A stretch of DNA of 64,000 nt, from contig JAGWMJ010000004.1 of assembly GCA_028871815.1 (NCBI GenBank), forward strand, positions 248,001 to 312,000. The letters run 5' to 3'. The notes below the pieces were generated by a model. That model made no database searches. It worked only from the letters and a program-made list of their open reading frames with translations, and was not told the DNA's origin. This stretch comes from Armatimonadota bacterium (GTDB lineage Bacteria; Armatimonadota; Chthonomonadetes; Chthonomonadales; Chthonomonadaceae). Below are positions 39,963-45,453 of the stretch, in pieces (the stretch's first letter is position 1; each line of letters opens with the position of its first letter). The translations under genes were made by a program, and so were the position numbers.

Positions 39963-40036
39963 GCGCCCGTAGCTCAGCGGATTAGAGTACCTGACTTCGG
40001 ATCAGGTGGTCGGGGGTTCGAATCCCTCCGGGCGTA
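39963..40036 (+). tRNA. tRNA-Arg, anticodon TCG
   Basis: A full cloverleaf can be drawn. The acceptor stem GCGCCCG pairs with CGGGCGT (G-U at the end pair), followed by discriminator A. The D arm is GCTC/GAGT. The anticodon stem CCTGA/TCAGG encloses CTTCGGA with anticodon TCG, reading CGA and perhaps other CGN arginine codons. The T arm contains GGTTCGAATCC. The CCA end is not encoded. Confidence 0.93.
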
Positions 40037-44366: not shown

Positions 44367-45002
44367 CTACGGAGGCGGAACGCCCTCAGGCTCCGACTGT
44401 TCGGTTTTTGCTGGATGCAACTTCCGTTCAATAGATTGCGCCACCGCAATCAGGTCTGATGGGGCCGGCCGTACCCGGTCGTTCGGGTTGATGTATGCGA
44501 ACGCAATACTGGCGTCGCCTCCTACAACAAACGTGGCCGCTCTCAGGACAGTACTGCCGGTATACCGACCCGCATAGAGTTTGGCGGCATCGCCGGTCTT
44601 GTCCGACAGAAAGGTAATCCATTTGAGCTTGTACCGGTCACGCATCTGCTTCTGCGCCGCCGGATCCTCGTTGGATATCGCGAAAACCTGAGCGTGCGTT
44701 TTGAGAATGCCGGATTTGGATAGCCCAACCTGAGCCATCTGCTGATTGCAGTACGGTCACCAGATGCCACGGTAAAAGATCAGGATCACAGGGCGTTTGC
44801 CAAACTGGCGGCCCACAGTTACGCTCTTACCGTCCACCGCGGGCAACGTGAATGAAGCCGCCTTCTTTCCAACGAACCCTTGCGTGTAATCGGGCGGCTT
44901 CGGTGGAGGTTGCGGACTCTGTACGGCGGTCTGGCACGCGGAAGGCATGCATGTGACGAGCAGCGCGGTCGCGGCAAGCGCCATGTTAACCACGCATTTC
45001 AC
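44367..45002 (-). CDS. Peroxiredoxin-like protein, candidate selenoprotein (in-frame TGA at residue 82)
   Basis: The frame runs from GTG 45002 (GGAGG seven bases before) to a stop at 44367, 211 residues if the TGA at 44759-44757 is read through. A hydrophobic leader (NMALAATALLVTCMPSAC) suggests export, perhaps as a lipoprotein. The AhpC/TSA fold follows: AASFTLPAVDGKSVTVG, VILIFYRGIW, then TGA, then PYCNQQMAQVG. Relatives have FYRGxWCPYC, so TGA stands exactly where the peroxidatic Cys belongs, with resolving Cys85 next. The remainder (VFAISNEDP, ITFLSDKTGDAAKLYAGR, ATFVVGGD) is intact. Selenocysteine is likely; a simple TGC-to-TGA nonsense change is the alternative. Confidence 0.6.
44719..44739 (-). 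promoter_or_regulatory. Candidate bacterial SECIS hairpin
   Basis: Beginning 17 bases after the in-frame TGA, GATGGCTC (44739-44732) pairs with GGGCTATC (44726-44719), eight pairs including two G-U, around the loop AGGTT. The loop resembles the AGGUCU loop of the E. coli fdhF SECIS, and the distance fits the bacterial consensus (apical loop roughly 16-37 bases after UGA). Confidence 0.45.
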
Positions 45003-45453
45003 GGCGATTCCTCCATTCTGGACCATAGATTGACCGAACTGTACGGCGGTATTTCGCTGCCCTTGGACCGCTTACCTGCGTGCGCGGCATAGTCAACGCA
45101 AGTAGGGCCGCTGCCAGGTCTCAACTACTGTGCGCCGTCCCCCAGCGCAGCGGGGATCGTGATGGAGCCCGGCTTGGCGCGTCACGCGAAGCCCTTTGAC
45201 TCGTCCATATGACTTGCGGTACAGACCTCCTTTGGAAGCTGAAGTCGCAGGAGCAATCAGCAATAGTGCTCGTTCCCGGCGGCAGCTCAAGCGCCACTGC
45301 CTGTGAATTTGCTCACGATGGCGTACACAGGCGGCCCGAAGTGAAACGATACCGCGCGTGAGTGTGTCTAAGTAGATGTTTCCACCCGGAGCGCTGGGCA
45401 AGTGCCGCCGCAGTAGCGAGGCGGCCTTATACCGGGCAGGAAGGAGATGCGTT
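45003..45453. other. 451-base intergenic region
   Basis: It separates the divergent peroxiredoxin-like gene and the ECF sigma gene. No conserved protein is seen in any frame. It holds a possible ECF-type promoter at 45342-45371. TTGACT on the minus strand at 45096-45091 lacks a good -10 partner. Confidence 0.5.
45342..45371 (+). promoter_or_regulatory. Possible ECF-type promoter of the sigma factor gene
   Basis: TGAAAC (45342-45347), 18 bases, GTCTAA (45366-45371). TGAAAC and GTC-type boxes about 16-18 bases apart are typical of ECF sigma promoters, so the sigma factor may transcribe its own gene. The predicted leader is about 75 bases. Confidence 0.4.

Follow-up and report, generated by a model that had tools for sequence, protein, structure and literature searches.

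A very probable UxxC peroxiredoxin-like selenoprotein gene in a genome of the phylum Armatimonadota

In a 64,000-nucleotide stretch of an Armatimonadota genome (the window), one gene on the reverse strand carries an in-frame TGA, which raises the question of whether this codon is translated as selenocysteine (Sec) or marks a dead or misread gene. A preliminary description of this DNA had proposed an exported or lipid-anchored AhpC/TSA-like selenoprotein with Sec in place of the peroxidatic Cys. We examined computationally the reading frame, the codon found at this position in relatives, the Sec-decoding machinery, the RNA downstream of the TGA and the predicted protein fold. The features of the locus are as follows.

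45002..44367, minus strand: candidate peroxiredoxin (Prx)-like UxxC selenoprotein gene, with a GTG start at 45002 and a TAG stop at 44369-44367 (translation, Pfam, AlphaFold2)
45010..45014, minus strand: Shine-Dalgarno sequence GGAGG, 7 nt 5' of the GTG start (sequence)
44931..45002, minus strand: putative N-terminal export signal (VKCVVNMALAATALLVTCMPSACQ) with a possible weak lipobox (sequence, judged by eye)
44757..44759, minus strand: in-frame TGA, codon 82, candidate Sec in WUPYC (TGA in 13 genomes, Cys elsewhere in the column)
44719..44739, minus strand: predicted SECIS hairpin GAUGGCUCA-GGU-UGGGCUAUC, 9 bp (RNAfold, synonymous-codon shuffles)

The gene forms a single frame of 211 codons, counting Sec82, and the TGA, flanked as FYRGIW-U-PYCNQQM, is its sole internal stop; a check for other stops or frameshifts revealed none. 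The preliminary description had noted a good ribosome-binding site, which corresponds to the GGAGG motif, and had assigned both sides of the TGA to one AhpC/TSA-like protein. The latter assignment held: the AhpC-TSA domain (pfam00578), which is characteristic of the Prx-like UxxC family, matched residues 44-167, across the TGA, at 69.3 bits (cut-off 26), and identity to two relatives (L062 and L067) was 53-58% before the TGA and persisted at 47-49% after it. GC contents at the three codon positions were 0.59/0.51/0.70 before the TGA and 0.60/0.47/0.64 after it, resembling those of the adjoining genes. The neighbours encode an M14 carboxypeptidase, an ECF sigma factor, an M55 peptidase, a pyridine nucleotide-disulphide oxidoreductase-like protein, TatD and a sulfatase, and none of the genes adjoining the locus suggested a clear redox partner. 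A tRNA gene at 39963-40036 (plus strand) was the only Rfam match within the window.

We then compared the best 27 family matches from 291 Armatimonadota genomes. Thirteen of them, each from a different genome, have TGA in WUxxC, and the other 14 have Cys. Relatives with Cys read WCPFC or WCPYC at the WUPYC site; in this family a TGA-encoded UxxC is thus matched by homologues that have Cys at the Sec position. The nearest homologues, L021 (46% identity) from a different family of Armatimonadota and L022 (43%) from a different genus of the window's own family, Chthonomonadaceae, both have TGA at the codon-82 column. A tree of the family needs at least five Sec/Cys changes, three of which are forced by well-supported branches. 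A scan of genome contigs with Cys-based peptide patterns returned only distant relatives, with at most 41% identity over a short segment.

About half of these Armatimonadota genomes carry tRNA-Sec (154/291). It was present in 11 of the 13 TGA genomes (p 0.017 against the remaining genomes), and these 11 comprise every TGA genome with a completeness of 80% or more. The two TGA genomes in which tRNA-Sec was not found, G009 and G064, are 72-73% complete. G009 has a SelB fragment above the cut-off (326 bits). A search for SelB in G064 gave only a SelB-like match below the cut-off (179 bits), which we rejected as SelB, a similar match being present in the Cys genome G101.

The window's own genome (22 contigs, 98% complete) encodes tRNA-Sec with the anticodon tca (69.9 bits, above the Rfam cut-off), as well as SelA (464 bits), SelB (353 bits) and SelD (349 bits), all above the curated cut-offs, with selA and selD adjoining each other; these four components make up the bacterial Sec-decoding trait. 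The selD gene (L059, G000:C10:75272-76213) itself contains an in-frame TGA, within CAGUAAK at the Cys17 site of SelD, followed by a hairpin. An FdnG-type formate dehydrogenase gene (L094, G000:C18:25936-26658) carries a TGA where such enzymes classically have Sec (ENQARTUHSASVPGLGASFGRGA). These results indicate that the genome is fully equipped for Sec decoding and has three or more selenoprotein genes. Together with the intact frame and the TGA in close relatives, the machinery supports the proposal of a selenoprotein.

Downstream of the UGA, the predicted hairpin starts at 17 nt and presents its apical loop, GGU, at 26 nt, in agreement with bacterial SECIS elements, in which a hairpin after the UGA carries a G in a small apical loop. 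No SECIS family of Rfam matched in the window at gathering scores. Folded alone, the hairpin has a free energy of -10.8 kcal/mol (z -3.0, RNAfold), and in a longer 60-nt fold a different structure is favoured over it. It surpassed synonymous-codon shuffles with p 0.011, which by itself is modestly significant. Across the family, an energy-based test gave weak results gene by gene. A contiguous-stem test (stem of at least 6 bp, G within the first two loop bases), which was chosen after the energy-based test had been seen and whose p-values therefore lean towards the hypothesis, found the hairpin in 11 of the 13 TGA members and 1 of the 14 Cys members (p 6e-5), and the combined synonymous-shuffle p was 2e-5 for TGA members and 0.72 for Cys members; since the 13 TGA members are related, their hairpin counts are not independent and these p-values serve as guides only. 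Covariation, a count independent of the contiguous-stem test save for the choice of register, was examined in six members with the loop at the same place: all 42 of 42 cells pair, four of the seven pairs change on both sides, and the pattern collapses when the pairing partners are slid. The hairpin of the present gene, whose centre lies half a base off those of the six, was left out of that count.

One Cys member (L078, G063:C151:7748-8254) has a SECIS-like hairpin, GCAACTG-GGG-CAGTTGC, 21 nt past its Cys codon, and tRNA-Sec was not found in its genome. This gene looks like a recent Sec-to-Cys change, and its hairpin is possibly a fossil SECIS.

To place Sec82 in the active site, we used an AlphaFold2 model of the protein (mean pLDDT 88), in which U82 adjoins a helix of residues 83-94. 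The closest solved folds in the PDB were PrxQ/Bcp and AhpE. In an alignment with the Aeropyrum Prx (2cx3), U82 lies opposite Ser46 and C85 opposite Cys49, which we take to be the peroxidatic Cys. In an alignment with the thioredoxin-family protein 3hdc, U82 lies opposite the first Cys of WCPYC. From these two alignments, Sec82 is assigned to the first, nucleophile position of a thioredoxin-like CxxC, and the peroxidatic column to Cys85, which is kept. The preliminary placement of the TGA at the peroxidatic Cys was thus off by three residues. The strict peroxiredoxin motif PxxxT/SxxC was not found; the corresponding RGIWUPYC has no Pro and bears Sec at the T/S place. Sec-containing peroxiredoxins of the TxxU type share the AhpC/TSA fold and a UGA-encoded Sec with the present protein, but their Sec occupies the peroxidatic position, three residues after that of Sec82 and equivalent to the column of Cys85. 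SelL, which carries UxxU, and SelL-related redox proteins (NF040769) also have a Prx-like fold; the present protein gave a weak match to this profile over residues 47-139, at 41.8 bits against a curated cut-off of 120, which places it outside that group.

Three other explanations of the TGA or of its chemistry were weighed. The preliminary description had allowed for a pseudogene or a sequencing error, the TGA being a Cys codon that was either mutated in a single genome, with loss of the gene's function, or misread. A single base separates TGC or TGT from TGA, but the TGA recurs in independent genomes of several families, the sequence past it is conserved without a second lesion, the genome has the Sec machinery, and the hairpin goes with the TGA members and shows compensatory changes; this explanation is therefore very unlikely. 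We regard as just as improbable that the TGA is decoded as an amino acid other than Sec, through a general change of the code or near-cognate read-through. Such decoding would also leave a TGA within an open frame, but codon 82 is the only TGA of the gene, Cys is the sole alternative in its column, a tRNA-Sec with anticodon tca and the full machinery are encoded in the genome, and two other genes of this genome have TGA precisely at classical Sec sites. Codon 82 is thus very probably a selenocysteine codon, and we are confident that this is a functional selenoprotein gene in which UGA read-through inserts Sec82 into an exported Prx-like protein.

The last alternative departs from this explanation in chemistry only: the selenoprotein could be a true peroxiredoxin, acting as a peroxidase with C85 as the peroxidatic residue and Sec82 as the resolving one. 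The position of C85 opposite Cys49 of the Aeropyrum Prx and the resemblance to PrxQ/Bcp and AhpE speak for it. Against it stand the loss of PxxxT/SxxC, with no Pro and with Sec replacing Thr/Ser, and the description of UxxC proteins of this type as thioredoxin-like (PMC1088965). We consider a true peroxiredoxin unlikely, though clearly less so than the two preceding explanations.

The preferred reading, with Sec82 as the nucleophile, suggests the following course. Translation would start at GTG 45002, and SelB, guided by the downstream hairpin, would bring Sec-tRNA-Sec to the ribosome at UGA 44759-44757, so that residue 82 becomes Sec. The protein would be exported as a thioredoxin-fold, Prx-like domain whose U82-P-Y-C85 redox pair starts the active-site helix. 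Given the UxxC motif and the export signal, we infer that Sec82 would attack an oxidised substrate, either a peroxide or a protein disulfide, that Cys85 would resolve it as a selenenylsulfide, and that a thiol donor of the cell envelope would then reduce the selenenylsulfide.

The proposed export is consistent with the N-terminal signal recognised by eye and with the homologues, which have signal peptides or clear lipoboxes (e.g. LAGC, LSAC, VVGC). Inspection of the present sequence by eye found no clean lipobox, which makes lipid anchoring of this protein doubtful, whereas several relatives have one. Four relatives (L065, L066, L073 and L075), each with TGA (FYKGxWUxxC), group apart as a clade of lipoprotein-like Prx-like proteins.

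Descriptions of UxxC Prx-like selenoproteins go back about 20 years (PMC1088965, PMC1794560), and such proteins have also been found in sequenced genomes (PMC1794560, PMC5029168). A 2026 inventory of 119 selenoprotein families includes this type as the Prx-like (thiol:disulfide oxidoreductase) family, with pfam00578, UxxC/UxxU and the representative WP_010940744.1 (PMC13188914, Table 1); it is the 'Prx-like 1' family of PMC2398784. The present protein shares with this family, as described, the AhpC-TSA domain, UxxC rather than TxxU, Cys homologues and a SECIS-like hairpin, and differs in being apparently exported and in coming from Armatimonadota. The preliminary description knew of no such report in this lineage. 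A search of openly accessible papers, judged by title and abstract, yielded no paper on Sec use in Armatimonadota, Armatimonadetes or Fimbriimonas, and the relevant passages of selenoproteome papers do not name Armatimonadota. That statement therefore stands for the lineage within these sources but not for the kind of protein, and the new part may be the lineage.

On a wider scale, we lean slightly towards the view that Armatimonadota have a widespread, undescribed selenoproteome, including a UxxC Prx-like clade that is located outside the cytoplasm, is often lipid-anchored and has undergone several Sec/Cys exchanges and in which at least one Cys member, L078, keeps a fossil SECIS. With tRNA-Sec in 154 of the 291 genomes, Armatimonadota can be added to the phyla in which the Sec trait is functional. 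The present gene and its relatives also provide a small set of natural Sec/Cys exchanges in an exported redox protein, some accompanied by a SECIS and some lacking one. Ordinary gene callers would either truncate the present gene at its UGA or place the start past that codon, so the annotations of this gene and of its relatives are likely wrong. Matches to the AhpC/TSA family that contain a single internal TGA were also observed in G229, G248, G217, G251, G255 and other genomes, and Armatimonadota seem to hold further Sec peroxiredoxin-type genes.
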